Shown here piece by piece: positions 14,549-41,527 of a stretch of 64,000 bases of DNA. The DNA comes from an uncultured Trueperaceae bacterium (lineage in GTDB: Bacteria > Deinococcota > Deinococci > Deinococcales > Trueperaceae). Location of the stretch: assembly GCA_937873495.1 (NCBI GenBank), contig CALMXZ010000008.1, positions 186,001 through 250,000 of the forward strand, written 5' to 3'. The position numbers and the translations under genes were made by a program. The notes under the pieces were generated by a model. It was not told where the DNA came from. It was given only the letters and a program-made list of their open reading frames with translations, and did not search any database. Position 1 is the stretch's first letter, and each line of letters opens with the position of its first letter.

Positions 14549-14582
14549 TTAGGCAACATATGGCTTTGGCTTATGATATCAT
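14549..14582 (+). promoter_or_regulatory. AT-rich promoter region of the SHMT-like/aconitase-like unit
   Basis: A -10 candidate TATGAT at 14572-14577 sits in an unusually AT-rich stretch; the -35 is poor (TTAGGC, 14549-14554, 17-nt spacer). The -10 overlaps a perfect 10-bp palindrome ATGATATCAT (14573-14582) that could be an operator. If used, the transcript has a leader of about 120 nt before ATG 14706; I see no recognised riboswitch in it. Confidence 0.45.
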
Positions 14583-14705
14583 CGCTTTGCAGGCCACCTG
14601 ATCGGTCTGTAGCTTTCGTTCTAAAAGTCAAAATCCTTCACCGCCTGGAGACCCGATGCCGTTACGACCGTTCAGACCACGATTCGACGCCACGACGACC
14701 CGCCC

Positions 14706-16028
14706 ATGAGCGATCCCGTAACCGCGAGCTCGCGGTCTCTGGCACCGGCACGACCGGCGCTCGCTACCCAGCCGGCCCCGATTCGCCCTCTCGAGCGCAT
14801 CCTCGCCGCCGTCGAGCACCAGGCCGCCTACCGGGCGGAATGCGTCGGGCTCGTGCCGACCGAGAACCTGCTGAGCCCGGCGGCGCGCGGGGTGATGGGG
14901 TCCGACCTCGGGCACCGCTACCTGTTCCAGAACCCGCAGTGGCGCTACGTCGGCGGGAAGCACCTGGCGGAGGTCGAGACGCTGGCGCAGGAGCTCGCGC
15001 GCGACCTGTTCGGCGCCCGCCACGCGAACGTGCGCCCGCTCTCGGGCGAGAACTGCACCAACATCGTCATCCACACCGTGCTCCGGCCGGGCGGCACCTT
15101 CTACCACCTCGCCATGGAGGACGGCGGCCACTTCGCCGCCAGGAGCGTGGCGGCACGCCTGACCGCCGACCTGCGTCAGGTCCCGTACGACGCCGCCAAC
15201 GCCACCCTCGACCTGGCCGGTTGCGCCCGCGCCTTCGAGGCCGCGCCGCCGGACGTGATCTACCTCGACGCTTCGATGGTCCTCTTCGCCCATCCCGTCA
15301 GGGAGCTGCGGAGCTTGGCCGGGCCGGATGCGATCATCGTCTACGACGCCTCGCAGGTCCTCGGCCTGCTGGCGGGCGGCATCTTCCAGGACCCGCTGCG
15401 CGAGGGCGCGGACGTGGTGTCCGGCAGCACGCACAAGTCGCTGCCCGGACCGCAGAAGGGCCTGATCCTCACCAACCGCGACGACATCGCGGCGCGGGTG
15501 GAGGCGACGATCTTCCCCGGCCACGTCTCCAACTTCCACCTGCATCACGTCGCCGCGCTGGCCGTCACGCTGGCCGAGGCGCAGGAGTACGGCGCCGCGT
15601 ACGCGCGCCAGACGGTGGCGAACGCGCGCGCCCTCGGGCTCGAGCTGGCGCGCCTCGGCCTAGCGGTCCAGGGCGGCGAACGCGTGACCGACTCGCATCA
15701 GGTATGGCTCGACGCGAGCCCGCTCGCCACGCCGGACGAGGCGGTCGAGGCCCTGCACGAGGTCAACCTGATCGCCAACGTCAACCTCATCCCTTCGCTG
15801 CGCCGCAAGGGGCTGCGCCTCGGCACGCCCGAGGTGACGCGCCTTGGCATGCGCGAGCCGGAGATGGCGCGGCTCGCCGCCCTCCTGCACGCGACGCTTA
15901 CAGGCGCCGAGCCGCGCGGACAGGTCCGCGAACGCGTCACGGACCTCGCCCGCCGCTTCAGGACCGTCCAGTACTGCCATCCCGGGGCCGATCGCATTGG
16001 AGCGCCGGCGAACGCCGACGCCGCGTGA
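14706..16028 (+). CDS. Serine-hydroxymethyltransferase-like PLP enzyme (divergent)
   Basis: 440-aa fold-type-I PLP enzyme of the glyA superfamily. The PLP lysine is K244 in SGSTHKSLPGPQKG, preceded by the cofactor-binding Asp214 in IVYDASQVLGLLAGG; canonical SHMT has His three residues after that Asp, here it is Gln217. ECVGLVPTENLLSPAARGVMGSDLGHRY corresponds to the SHMT LIxSEN...SxxxxG...NKY region but is altered. The STHK-PGP form is seen in SHMT-like transaldolases and other beta-hydroxy-amino-acid enzymes, so a role other than one-carbon metabolism is likely. It is cotranscribed with the following aconitase-family gene (GTGA overlap). The true substrate cannot be read from sequence. Confidence 0.8.
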   Translation: MSDPVTASSRSLAPARPALATQPAPIRPLERILAAVEHQAAYRAECVGLVPTENLLSPAARGVMGSDLGHRYLFQNPQWRYVGGKHLAEVETLAQELARDLFGARHANVRPLSGENCTNIVIHTVLRPGGTFYHLAMEDGGHFAARSVAARLTADLRQVPYDAANATLDLAGCARAFEAAPPDVIYLDASMVLFAHPVRELRSLAGPDAIIVYDASQVLGLLAGGIFQDPLREGADVVSGSTHKSLPGPQKGLILTNRDDIAARVEATIFPGHVSNFHLHHVAALAVTLAEAQEYGAAYARQTVANARALGLELARLGLAVQGGERVTDSHQVWLDASPLATPDEAVEALHEVNLIANVNLIPSLRRKGLRLGTPEVTRLGMREPEMARLAALLHATLTGAEPRGQVRERVTDLARRFRTVQYCHPGADRIGAPANADAA

Positions 16029-17905
16029 CCCCGGCCGAGCTCCCGACGCTCATCGAGCGCCGGCTGGGCGCCCCCGCCGGGCAGGAGGTCGATCTCGCGG
16101 TCGACCTCATCGTCACCGACGATTGGACGACGCCCTCCCTCCTTCCGACGCTCGCCGCGCTCGGCACCACGAGGTCGGCCGCGCCGCTCGTGCTCGTGCG
16201 CGACCACACCGGTCCGGTCGACACTTACGCCGGTGCGGAGCGCGACCGGGTGCTTGCGCTCCGCCAGGTCGAGGAGGAGTTCGCGGCCCGCTTCGGCGCC
16301 GAGCGCATCGCGGGCCAGGGGATCCAGCATCATGCCCTCCCGGCCAGCGGCCGCCTGCGCCCCGGCATGCTGGTACTCGGCAACGACTCGCACACGCCGA
16401 CGTTGGGCGCCCACGGCGTCACGGCGTTCGCGGCACAGCCCACCACCCTCGCCGTGGCGATCCACACCGGACGCTTCGTCGTTCGCGTGCCGGAGACGGT
16501 GCGCGTCGACGTCGTCGGTCGGCTCGGCCAGAACGTCACCGTGCGCGACGCGGCCCTCACCCTGCTTGACCTCCTGCGCGGCGGCGGGTCCGTGCCCCGC
16601 CTGGCCACCGGCAAGGCGCTCGAGTTCGGCGGCCCCGGCCTGGCGCACCTCACCGGTGCCGAGCGCGCCGTCCTGGCCAACGTCACCCCCGAGGCCGCCG
16701 CGCTCACGGCGCTCTTCCCCCTGCTCCCGCCCGCCGCGACCGCGCGCGCCACGTGGCCGGTCGTCACGCTCGACCTCGCGCAAGTGGTGCCGTCGGTAGC
16801 GCGCAGCGGCCAGCCGTCCGACGTCGTGCCGCTCGCGCGGCTCGGCGCCAGGCGCGTGGACCGCGTGTTCGTGGGTACGTGCGCCGGCGGCACGTACGAG
16901 GAGATCGCCGCGTTCGCCGGCGCGCTCGGAGCGCACGCGGCGGTGCCGACCGTCGTCGCGCCCGCCTCCACCGGCGTGCTCGAGCGCCTGAGCGCGGCGG
17001 GCATCGTCGACCAGCTCGAGGCCGCCGGCGTAACGCTGCTCGCGCCCGGCTGCGGACCGTGCTTCGGCTTCGGGATGAAGCGCCTAGAGGACGGCGAGGT
17101 GGCGGTCGTTACCGGGAACCGCAACAGCGTCGGCCGCATGGGCTCGCCGAACGCCCAGATCGTCCTCGCGGCCGGCCGCACCGCCGGGCTGGCCGCCGGA
17201 ACCGGGTGGCTGAACCAGCCGACCGGCGCGAGCGGCATGGACGGGAGCGCCGCGGACGGGCATGATGCGGCCGCCCGCCACGCCGCGGCGCCCATACGCA
17301 CCAACGGTCACGGGCAGGCGACGCCGCCGCACCCGGACCGCCCCGCCGCGCCGACGGTGGTCTGGCCCAGCACTGGCAACGTGGTCAGGCTGCGGGGCCT
17401 CGTCTCCACCGACGACCTGACCCCCTCCAGCGTGCCCGGCGTCGGGACGTCGAGCGACCCAGACCCGCGCGTAGCGCGGCGGCTGCTGCTCCACCACGTC
17501 GACCCGAGCGCAGCCGACCGCCGGCTGGATGGCACCGTCTTCGTGGGAGACGAGAACTTCGGGATGGGTAGCAACCGGGCGTCCTCGATCAGGGCCCTGC
17601 TGCATGCGGGCGTGCGCGCCGTGATCGCCCCGAGCATCGCGCCGCTCTACGGGTCGGGCGCGCGCGACGAGGGGCTGCCTGCCATCACCCTGACCGACGA
17701 GGCGTTCTATGCGGCGCTGACACCGGAGGCGACGGTGGAGTTGGACCTCGCCGCGGGCACCGTGACGGTCCGGGCGGCGACGCCCCCCGGCCGACCGCCG
17801 GCCCTCGACCCGCTCCGCTTCCGCTTCGCCCCCGTAGGCCCCTACGAAGCGGCCGTGCTCGCGGCCGGCGGCGCCGTCCCGTACCTTCGCCTCTCGGGAG
17901 CGTAG
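16025..17905 (+). CDS. Aconitase-family (LeuC+LeuD-like) hydro-lyase, single-chain fusion
   Basis: 626 aa from GTG 16025, which overlaps the upstream TGA (GTGA); the very long frame reaching back to 14573 is a shadow. Residues 1-400 form the [4Fe-4S] domain: VLVRDHTGPVDT, GIQHHALPASGRLRPGMLVLGNDSHTPTLGAHG, then cluster cysteines C286 (GTCAGGTYEE), C343 and C346 (APGCGPCFG). A Gly/His/Pro-rich linker (about 405-450) leads to the swivel domain, with GLVSTDDLTP and ENFGMGSNRASSIRALLHAGVRAVIAPS (LeuD-like). Organisation is closer to LeuC/LeuD than to AcnA. It is too divergent to assign isopropylmalate, homoaconitate or citrate as substrate. The SHMT-like partner suggests a special pathway. Confidence 0.8.
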   Translation: MTPAELPTLIERRLGAPAGQEVDLAVDLIVTDDWTTPSLLPTLAALGTTRSAAPLVLVRDHTGPVDTYAGAERDRVLALRQVEEEFAARFGAERIAGQGIQHHALPASGRLRPGMLVLGNDSHTPTLGAHGVTAFAAQPTTLAVAIHTGRFVVRVPETVRVDVVGRLGQNVTVRDAALTLLDLLRGGGSVPRLATGKALEFGGPGLAHLTGAERAVLANVTPEAAALTALFPLLPPAATARATWPVVTLDLAQVVPSVARSGQPSDVVPLARLGARRVDRVFVGTCAGGTYEEIAAFAGALGAHAAVPTVVAPASTGVLERLSAAGIVDQLEAAGVTLLAPGCGPCFGFGMKRLEDGEVAVVTGNRNSVGRMGSPNAQIVLAAGRTAGLAAGTGWLNQPTGASGMDGSAADGHDAAARHAAAPIRTNGHGQATPPHPDRPAAPTVVWPSTGNVVRLRGLVSTDDLTPSSVPGVGTSSDPDPRVARRLLLHHVDPSAADRRLDGTVFVGDENFGMGSNRASSIRALLHAGVRAVIAPSIAPLYGSGARDEGLPAITLTDEAFYAALTPEATVELDLAAGTVTVRAATPPGRPPALDPLRFRFAPVGPYEAAVLAAGGAVPYLRLSGA

Positions 17906-39110: not shown

Positions 39111-39617
39111 TCAGTAGCTGGCGCCCGGCAGGAGTTCGTGGCCCTCGGACCCGGACTCCGCGCGCTGCCGCTTCAGCTCCTGCATGGCGACGATGCTCAG
39201 GCGCGCGATGGACGTGATGCGCGCCAGCCCGAGCGCGTCGGCCGGCTCCCAGTAGTCGAAACCCGCGCCCTCCGCGAGCACCATTTCTTCCTTCGGGGCA
39301 TCGATGGCCGCGAGGAAGATGTGGTACCGGGCGCGCCAGCCGTCGTAGACGAGCAGCGGGCGGAAGTGGCGCACGTGGAAGCCGATCTCCTCGGCGATCT
39401 CCCGGCACATGCCCTCCGCCGGCGTCTCGCCGACGTCCAGCCCGCCGCCGAACAGCGACCACTCGCCAGGCGACACGATGCCGGGCTTGTCGTCGCGCAG
39501 TTGCAGCAGCACGCGGCCGTCGGGGCGCAGCAGCACCGCCCCGGCCACCGCGCGGCGGCCGTCGGGCAGACGCACGTCGGGCTCGACGCCCGCGTCGGGC
39601 TCGACGCGCACCGTCAC
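39111..39617 (-). CDS. NUDIX hydrolase
   Basis: 168 aa. NUDIX box GGGLDVGETPAEGMCREIAEEIGF (Gx5Ex7REUXEEXGU) is at about residues 57-80. The N-terminal part is a beta-sandwich with AVAGAVLLRPDGRVLLQLR, and DYWEPADALGLA lies C-terminal. Likely hydrolyses a nucleoside-diphosphate-linked compound; target unknown. GTG 39617 overlaps the speA stop (ATGTGA), so it is cotranscribed behind speA. Confidence 0.9.
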   Translation of the reverse strand: MTVRVEPDAGVEPDVRLPDGRRAVAGAVLLRPDGRVLLQLRDDKPGIVSPGEWSLFGGGLDVGETPAEGMCREIAEEIGFHVRHFRPLLVYDGWRARYHIFLAAIDAPKEEMVLAEGAGFDYWEPADALGLARITSIARLSIVAMQELKRQRAESGSEGHELLPGASY

Positions 39618-41527
39618 ATCGCCTCTAGGTAGGTGTAGCCGACCAGCTCGCGGTCGTACAGCTCGAGGAACTCCTCGACCTCGTCCGCGTCGAGGACGCC
39701 TTCGGCCCGCAGCTCCTCCACCTGGCGTTGGACGGCGGCGTGCAGCTCCGGGGTCTCGTAGCCCATGTTGTGGATGACGCGGCGCGCCTTCTGACCCTCG
39801 ACGTACAGCTCGACGTGCGCGCCGTCCTTGCCCAACCGCACGTGCGCCTCGTTTACGCGCCCGAAGAGGTTGTGGGCGTTGGCGAGGACGTCCTGGTACG
39901 CGCCGGTCAGGAAGACGCCGAGGTAGTAGGGCTGGCCGGGCACGAAGTCGTGCACCGGCAGCGTGGAACGAACGTCGCGCAGGTCGATGAAGCGCTCGAT
40001 CTTGCCGTCGGAGTCGCAGCTGATGTCGACCAGGGTCGCGTTGCGCGTCGGCTTCTCCGCCAGGCGCTGCAGCGGCACGATCGGGAAGAGCGTCTTGATG
40101 GCCCAGTGGTCCGGCAGGCTCTGGAACAACGAGAAGTTGACCACGTACTTGTCGGCGAGCATCTGCGGGAGGAGCTCGAACTCCTCCGGCACGTAGTCGA
40201 GCCCCGAGACCACCTTGGCGACGCGCTCCAGGAGGCGGTTGTAGAGCTGCTCGAAGTGCGCGCGCTCAAGGAGGCTCAGGTAGCCGAGGTCGAAGAGGCT
40301 ATGCATCGTCTCCTTGTTCGAGACGGCCTCGTTGAAGACCTCGCGGTACGTCTTGACGGTCACGGCCTTGTCGAGCTCCTGCATGTCGCGCAGGAGCGCG
40401 TGGACCTCGCCCGTGAGGGGCGGCAGGTCGGCGCCGGTCCTCGTCGGCCCGATGGCGTCGACGACGGGCACGATCACGACGGAGTGGTGGGCCGTGAGCG
40501 CCCTCCCGGACTCCGTGACGATGACCGGGTGCGCCACCTCCCACTCCTGACACGACTCCATGATGGTGTAGACGACCGTGTCGGCGTACTCGCGCAGGCC
40601 GTAGTTGGCCGAGGTGTAGTAGGTCGTCTTCGACCCGTCGTAGTCCACCGCCAGGCCGCCGCCCACGTCGAGGTACTTGACCCCGACGCCCATCTCGGCG
40701 AGCTCGACGTAGGCCTGGGCGGCCTCGCGCACCGCGGCGCGGATGCGCCGGATGTCGGTGAGCTGGCTGCCGACATGGCAGTGCAGGAGCACGAGCCTGT
40801 GGCCGAGGCCCTCCGCCTGCACGCGCTGCGCGACGGTGATGAGTTCCGAGGCGGTGAGGCCGAACTTGGCGTCGTCGCCGCCGGACGCCTCCCACTGGCC
40901 GCTGCCGCGCGCGTGCAGCTTGAAGCGCACGCCGAGCAGGGGTTCGACGCCCACCTCCTTGCTGATGCGCAGGACGCGCTCCAGCTCGCCGGCCTTCTCC
41001 AGCGTGATGATGACGTTGCGCCCGAGCTTGCGGCCCCACAGGGCCAGCCGGATGAAGTCGTCGTCCTTGAAGCCGTTGCAGCAGATGAGCGCGTCGTCGT
41101 GCGTCTCGTGCGCCAGGCAGAGGGCGAGTTCAGCCTTGCTACCTGCCTCGAGGCCCGTGCGGTACTTGGCGCCGTACGACGCGATGGTCTCGACGACCAT
41201 CCGGCGCTGGTTGACCTTGATGGGGAACACGCCCTGGTAACGGTTCTGATACCCGGCCTCGGCTATGGCCGCCGCGAACGCCTCGTTGATGCGGTCCATG
41301 CGGTCCTCGAGGATGTCCGGGAAGCGCAGCACGATGGGCAGCGCGTGACCCTGCTCCGTGAGGTCGTCGACGATGCTCCTGAGCGACACCGCGGGCGAAC
41401 CCTTCACCGACACCGTGAGCTCGCCCCGTTTCGAGACCCCGAAGAACCCGCTCGACCACGCCTTGATGCTGTAAAGCTCGTCGGCGTCCGCGATGCTGAA
41501 ACCTGGGTCGAGGGTGGGTCTGCTCAC
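39614..41527 (-). CDS. speA: Biosynthetic arginine decarboxylase
   Basis: 637-aa PLP enzyme (fold type III, ODC-like barrel plus C-terminal domain) making agmatine from arginine, feeding aguA-aguB to putrescine. PLP lysine in VFPIKVNQRR; other motifs are GLEAGSKAEL, LLGVRFKLHARGSGQWEASGGDDAKFGL, LHCHVGSQLTD, LDVGGGLAVDYDGS, and the C-terminal active Cys-containing VDISCDSDGKIE. Start GTG 41527 is chosen because GGAGG (41535-41539) sits about 7 nt upstream; 23 more upstream residues in the frame have no similarity. Divergent from aguAB across 1.5 kb of decayed DNA; NUDIX follows. Confidence 0.95.
   Translation of the reverse strand: MSRPTLDPGFSIADADELYSIKAWSSGFFGVSKRGELTVSVKGSPAVSLRSIVDDLTEQGHALPIVLRFPDILEDRMDRINEAFAAAIAEAGYQNRYQGVFPIKVNQRRMVVETIASYGAKYRTGLEAGSKAELALCLAHETHDDALICCNGFKDDDFIRLALWGRKLGRNVIITLEKAGELERVLRISKEVGVEPLLGVRFKLHARGSGQWEASGGDDAKFGLTASELITVAQRVQAEGLGHRLVLLHCHVGSQLTDIRRIRAAVREAAQAYVELAEMGVGVKYLDVGGGLAVDYDGSKTTYYTSANYGLREYADTVVYTIMESCQEWEVAHPVIVTESGRALTAHHSVVIVPVVDAIGPTRTGADLPPLTGEVHALLRDMQELDKAVTVKTYREVFNEAVSNKETMHSLFDLGYLSLLERAHFEQLYNRLLERVAKVVSGLDYVPEEFELLPQMLADKYVVNFSLFQSLPDHWAIKTLFPIVPLQRLAEKPTRNATLVDISCDSDGKIERFIDLRDVRSTLPVHDFVPGQPYYLGVFLTGAYQDVLANAHNLFGRVNEAHVRLGKDGAHVELYVEGQKARRVIHNMGYETPELHAAVQRQVEELRAEGVLDADEVEEFLELYDRELVGYTYLEAM

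Follow-up and report, generated by a model that had tools for sequence, protein, structure and literature searches.

A gene pair of Trueperaceae encoding a transaldolase-like and an aconitase-like enzyme: a possible entry into lysine synthesis through alpha-aminoadipate

Lysine is synthesized by two known routes, which pass through diaminopimelate (DAP) or alpha-aminoadipate (AAA). A full AAA cluster has been reported for Truepera in a 2012 survey, in which DapB was found within the phylum only in D. proteolyticus (PMC3356886). Among enzymes that use pyridoxal 5'-phosphate (PLP), the catalytic residues of ObiH (H131, D204 and K234) and two loops involved in its choice of acceptor have been described (PMC10495429), and in the aconitase superfamily AcnX dehydrates cis-3-hydroxyproline, the nitrogen of which is held by an Asp residue (PMC8184944). 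In this study, two adjacent genes were analyzed in a 64 kb stretch of Trueperaceae DNA (contig CALMXZ010000008.1; hereafter the window). The first encodes a PLP enzyme resembling serine hydroxymethyltransferase (SHMT) and threonine transaldolases, and the second encodes a single-chain protein resembling the [4Fe-4S] hydro-lyases of the aconitase family. It is regarded as plausible, though short of probable, that the pair is inherited together as part of the lysine regulon and feeds the LysW pathway with AAA or 2-oxoadipate in those Trueperaceae that have lost homocitrate synthase and LysTU.

The window belongs to a genome of 3.4 Mb from the same family as public records titled Trueperaceae (Deinococcota). 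The genes and the codons discussed below are located as follows.

14706..16028, + strand: SHMT/threonine-transaldolase-like PLP enzyme of 440 amino acids (PF00464, 156 bits)
15354..15356, + strand: codon of Gln217, which is His in SHMT and transaldolases (alignment)
15435..15437, + strand: codon of the PLP lysine K244 (alignment)
16025..16028, + strand: GTGA start/stop overlap coupling both genes (sequence)
16025..17905, + strand: single-chain aconitase-family [4Fe-4S] hydro-lyase-like protein of 626 amino acids with a GTG start (PF00330 and PF00694)
16880..16882, + strand: codon of cluster Cys286; the next residues are Ala-Gly-Gly (Thr-Asn in other family members; alignment)
17051..17062, + strand: codons of cluster Cys343 and Cys346 (alignment)

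The GTGA overlap, which an earlier note on this DNA had reported, was seen at these positions. The SHMT-like protein was searched against 390 genomes, comprising 111 from Deinococcota and some 280 from other phyla. Among the 111 from Deinococcota, ten carry its gene; these ten belong to a single family (Trueperaceae), and the second gene was adjacent in each of them, a conservation of pairing that the earlier note had proposed as a check. In an eleventh genome the second gene lies at a contig edge; with this genome included, 11 of 39 Trueperaceae genomes are counted as pair-positive. Since the genes are adjacent in every one of the ten genomes and both gene trees agree on most branches within the family, the pair appears to be inherited as a unit. 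The flanking genes differ between genera, and no conserved neighbour, biosynthetic or other, was found beyond the pair. Only four SHMT-like relatives were found in the other phyla (36-38% identity), none of them beside an aconitase; a peptide-pattern scan of the genome contigs, in which narrow patterns were used, gave matches in Trueperaceae only, and a literature search found no paper describing such a pair. Ordinary GlyA and AcnA, as well as LeuC followed by LeuD, are encoded separately in the host genome, and the pair is therefore an addition to these enzymes.

The first protein is of fold type I. With the NCBIfam models it reaches 290 bits against a cut-off of 335 for SHMT and 231 bits against 650 for fluorothreonine transaldolase, and thus falls short of both. 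The residues singled out in the earlier note were recovered: the PLP lysine K244 (STHK) is present, Q217 stands beside the PLP aspartate D214 (DASQ), and both K244 and Q217 are invariant in ten orthologues. At the position of Q217 all other SHMT-family sequences compared have His, and Gln is unique to the pair clade; of the Lys, Asp and nearby His that characterize GlyA, the first two are thus kept and the third is replaced in 10/10 orthologues. In cysteine desulfurases a Gln at a comparable place bonds O3' of PLP, so the change from His to Gln need not be disabling. In a tree of 40 sequences, the pair clade is grouped (support 99/98) with fluorothreonine transaldolase, with ObiH and with SHMT-like enzymes from plasmid clusters of Streptomyces. 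Forced grouping with GlyA was rejected in an approximately unbiased (AU) test (p-AU 0.0016), several of the clade partners being long branches. The protein, for which membership of ordinary GlyA had been raised as a possibility, is thus separate from GlyA; its companions are threonine transaldolases and the SHMT-like enzymes encoded in antibiotic clusters. This clade and the catalytic residues H142, D214 and K244 (H131, D204 and K234 in ObiH) are those expected of an L-threonine transaldolase. Furthermore, R80 and K368, two basic residues located in the two loops tied to acceptor choice in ObiH (PMC10495429), do not vary among the orthologues and would suit a carboxylated acceptor. The AlphaFold model of this protein is weak (pLDDT 66.5) and carries no structural argument.

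Other SHMT-like genes were noted in the sequences compared. The Streptomyces FR1/F8 plasmid cluster (L032 5514-13620, L109) encodes a radical SAM enzyme, a P450, an SHMT-like enzyme, a GT9 protein, a carbamoyltransferase and a GDSL esterase, and resembles a natural-product cluster that includes an enzyme of the transaldolase-like kind. The gcvT of Vescimonas fastidiosa (L116) is apparently fused to an SHMT-like domain, and SHMT-like proteins with NPATN and STYKS motifs in G074 and Paraburkholderia sp. PGU19 (L108, L036) form a separate divergent clade.

The second protein combines LeuC-like and LeuD-like parts in one chain and retains the cluster cysteines C286, C343 and C346, as had been claimed; the cysteines are invariant among the orthologues. 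Its AlphaFold2 model (pLDDT 81.6) has its best PDB matches in aconitase and homoaconitase, and this fold match to aconitase, the three cysteines and an invariant base Ser516 (Ser642 in aconitase) place it in the [4Fe-4S] aconitase superfamily. Asp-His, Asp-Ser-His, Asn-Arg...Arg and the Arg after the base Ser are also kept. Because the cluster Cys, the base Ser and the other active-site residues are retained, the enzyme looks catalytically competent. Three sites that are identical, or almost so, in the aconitases, LeuC, HacA and single-chain enzymes used for comparison are altered: C-T-N is changed to C-A/S-G, the active-site His is followed by His or a second His where Gln is usual, and Ser643 is replaced by Asn (GSSR to GSNR). 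In addition, Asp32 occupies the position of aconitase Gln72. The protein lies under every NCBIfam cut-off for aconitase, isopropylmalate isomerase and homoaconitase, with 175 of 550 bits for HacA_Meth and 208.5 of 385.7 bits for hacA_fam, and in the tree it forms a long branch of its own adjoining LeuCD plus HacAB. AU tests rejected its grouping with HacAB (p=0.010) and with single-chain aconitases of 640-660 amino acids (p=0.0045); grouping with LeuCD was not formally rejected (p=0.069), and the NCBIfam LeuCD scores are far below the cut-offs. The protein is therefore separate from HacAB, whereas in the tree its separation from LeuCD, on which the earlier note depended, stays short of formal significance; the host has a separate LeuCD. 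Escherichia coli YbhJ (L120 3004-5265), a protein of unknown function, has a similar C-S-G-G at the first cluster Cys, and its Ser643 is likewise altered.

The region upstream of the pair contains the following elements.

14572..14577, + strand: probable -10 box TATGAT within the conserved TTATGATA (upstream comparison of eight genomes)
14613..14627, + strand: window copy of the lysine-regulon operator, CTTTCGTTCTAAAAG (upstream comparison)
14656..14709, + strand: possible leader open reading frame of 17 codons (MPLRPFRPRFDATTTRP) with a GGAGA ribosome site, the stop of which overlaps the ATG of the SHMT-like gene (sequence)

A palindrome across the -10 box had been proposed, and ATGATATCAT is indeed present at 14573-14582; however, it is limited to the window genome and the two relatives closest to it, and is not conserved. 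Outside these relatives only TTATGATA remains, in most genomes, as expected of a -10 box. Downstream of TTATGATA and before the pair lies a conserved inverted repeat, CTTWCGNWTCGWAAG, which is found with at most one mismatch in seven of the nine available upstream regions, compared with 1/10,640 background windows, a conservation far above that expected by chance. When the 11 pair genomes were scanned in their entirety, only a small number of copies appeared, and the majority of these precede the pair or lysW. In the pair genomes the repeat precedes lysW-lysX-lysY-lysZ-lysJ-lysK, usually as two copies about 200-225 bp apart; spacing of this kind (about 198-232 bp) occurs in most lysW operons and in two homocitrate synthase operons, and such paired copies suggest a looping repressor. 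In relatives with homocitrate synthase the operator is missing at LysX, and six of ten such relatives have a similar site (0-2 mismatches) 78-315 bp upstream of the profile match of the homocitrate synthase gene. As the repeat stands before the pair, the lysW operon and homocitrate synthase, it marks a lysine regulon of the Trueperaceae. The pair carries the operator common to lysW and homocitrate synthase, and this link to the AAA lysine regulon probably gives it a pathway. No riboswitch was found with Rfam in the pair or lysW regions tested. One lysW promoter (G000:C2, L143 9739 and 9952) has an operator copy on either side, the distance between the copies being 213 bp. A leader open reading frame similar to that at 14656-14709 is present in G092, and translational coupling may be involved.

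Control by this operator bears on the explanation that the pair makes a specialized beta-hydroxy amino acid, such as a modified lysine, another LysW substrate or a natural-product building block, and not AAA. Such a product would suit the patchy distribution of the pair and its nearest SHMT relatives, which lie in natural-product clusters (S. clavuligerus and Streptomyces FR1/F8). However, no further biosynthetic genes are conserved next to the pair, and its operator is that of primary lysine genes; a specialized product is considered quite unlikely.

The lysW operon encodes LysW (with an EDWGE end), LysX, LysY, LysZ, LysJ and LysK. The LysX, LysZ and LysK of the host score above the lysine-type cut-offs, and its LysX keeps the Asn-Thr signature described for AAA-type LysX (PMC10433800). 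A reading of the operon as an arginine pathway was ruled out, as argB and argC are separate and LysX, LysZ and LysK are of the lysine type. A DapA-like gene was likewise rejected, being under the dapA cut-off and situated by apparent hydroxyproline-catabolism genes. Homocitrate synthase was over the cut-off in 0/11 pair-positive versus 10/28 pair-negative genomes (Fisher p=0.02 for the 39 genomes and 0.011 among those at least 90% complete), and all HacA-like large subunits observed belonged to pair-negative Trueperaceae.

These counts are also relevant to a rival in which the Fe-S protein would be a fused homoaconitase (LysT plus LysU) feeding homoisocitrate dehydrogenase, with a promiscuous enzyme of the LeuA/CimA type as the source of homocitrate and only a side job for the SHMT-like protein. 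It would accommodate the shared lysine operator, the nearest branch of LeuCD plus HacAB and the homoisocitrate-dehydrogenase-type gene present in G000 and G083. However, homocitrate synthase is over the cut-off in no pair genome, grouping with HacAB is rejected (p=0.010), residues are changed beside the first Cys and at Ser643, and neither the invariable SHMT-like partner nor the lack of homocitrate synthase is explained. A fused homoaconitase is accordingly judged unlikely.

From the observed pairing, family placement, shared operator, exclusion of homocitrate synthase and LysW/LysX/LysZ/LysK set, we infer a chemistry in which the pair makes AAA or 2-oxoadipate, an assignment that is tentative yet has a fair amount of plausibility. 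With glycine, serine or threonine as the donor, the PLP enzyme would add a glycyl unit to a carboxylated C4 acceptor, in the simplest case succinic semialdehyde, and the aldol product would be 3-hydroxy-2-aminoadipate. The Fe-S enzyme would dehydrate this compound to an enamine, which would tautomerize and hydrolyze to 2-oxoadipate, and transamination would then yield AAA. Succinic semialdehyde as the actual acceptor is rather unlikely when taken by itself. In a variant, 2-oxoglutarate would be the acceptor and the route would run through amino-homocitrate and oxaloglutarate to 2-oxoadipate; the homocitrate-like product would better fit classical aconitase geometry, and this acceptor is highly improbable. 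The suggestion of the earlier note that a beta-hydroxy amino acid from the first enzyme may be dehydrated by the second is, by analogy, the best mechanistic guess, for which the dehydration of a 3-hydroxy amino acid by AcnX with an Asp-held nitrogen, considered together with Asp32 at the Gln72 position, provides a precedent. It is possible, but distinctly doubtful, that a PLP aldolase and an Fe-S dehydratase constitute a new entry to AAA, in which 2-oxoadipate is formed from a glycyl unit and a C4 or C5 carboxylated acceptor and homocitrate synthase, homoaconitase and homoisocitrate dehydrogenase are all replaced. A third entry into lysine synthesis has a concrete candidate in a lineage that has the second half of the AAA pathway, has lost its first enzyme and places an unrelated aldolase/dehydratase pair under the switch of the remaining genes; if true, 2-oxoadipate and AAA could be reached by a short route without acetyl-CoA.

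The same two enzyme types could instead serve glyoxylate assimilation, in which glycine and glyoxylate would give 3-hydroxyaspartate and then iminosuccinate or oxaloacetate, amounting to two steps of the beta-hydroxyaspartate cycle carried out with other folds. 3-Hydroxyaspartate (aminomalate) is a 3-substituted malate, a shape bound by aconitase-family enzymes, and malate synthase is missing in 10/11 pair genomes. However, 21/28 pair-negative genomes lack it too, and a malate synthase is encoded in the window genome; isocitrate lyase gave no strong match in the pair genomes, and the lysine operator is left unexplained. A survey of malate synthase, isocitrate lyase and OCD-family genes in the 39 Trueperaceae gave no informative correlation, and glyoxylate assimilation is considered very unlikely.

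Several observations weigh against a role of the pair in supplying AAA or 2-oxoadipate. The operator of the window genome is degenerate, with the left half-site intact and three mismatches to CTTWCGNWTCGWAAG, and the mutual exclusion of the pair and homocitrate synthase partly follows phylogeny. Nine genomes that are at least 90% complete (for example G093, in one contig) have neither the pair nor homocitrate synthase, and at least four genomes with neither route (G085, G093, G100 and G102; L209, L208, L201 and L200) have an intact-looking LysW/LysX operon and an operator-like site. The pair is therefore not a general requirement, and another source of AAA must exist in such genomes. The homoisocitrate-dehydrogenase-type gene persists in G000 and G083, where the proposed route would not need it unless the gene serves as an isocitrate dehydrogenase. 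A lone dapB over the NCBIfam cut-off is present in G000 (G000:C11, L240 14469-15275); no DAP cluster was found around it, and dapF and lysA were not found in the approximately half of this genome that was read. Furthermore, to our knowledge, there are few known examples of aldol addition to a ketone by enzymes with the fold of the PLP enzyme.

Elsewhere in the window, an open frame at 39617-40954 (- strand) resembles the C-terminal two thirds of a biosynthetic arginine decarboxylase.

The pair can be compared with described systems at the level of each enzyme and of the pathway. The PLP enzyme shares Asp-x-Ser, GPQKG after the PLP lysine and the His-Asp-Lys set with the threonine transaldolases (ObiH/ObaG and fluorothreonine transaldolase) and with the SHMT-like enzyme of S. 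clavuligerus, which we take to be OrfA of the alanylclavam cluster, whereas it differs from them in its 32-42% identity, in Gln for His, in another specificity loop and in its aconitase-like partner gene. The archaeal-type SHMT of M. jannaschii (4UQV) gives the top PDB score, at about 37% identity; however, it has His and no Gln, and is placed in the tree with GlyA outside the pair/transaldolase clade. The Fe-S enzyme resembles LeuCD and LysTU/HacAB in its nearest branch, cluster cysteines, Asp-Ser-His, Asn-Arg...Arg and catalytic Ser, and is unlike them in its single chain, CAGG for CTN, GSNR for GSSR and Asp at the Gln72 position. AcnX belongs to the same superfamily and its substrate is a 3-hydroxy amino acid (PMC5144071, PMC8184944), whereas its cluster ligands and domain order are different and there is no close sequence relation. 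Finally, the LysW-LysX-LysY-LysZ-LysJ-LysK set of the AAA pathway of Thermus and Truepera is present (PMC3356886), but homocitrate synthase and LysTU are absent, and it is the pair that stands under the same operator in their stead.

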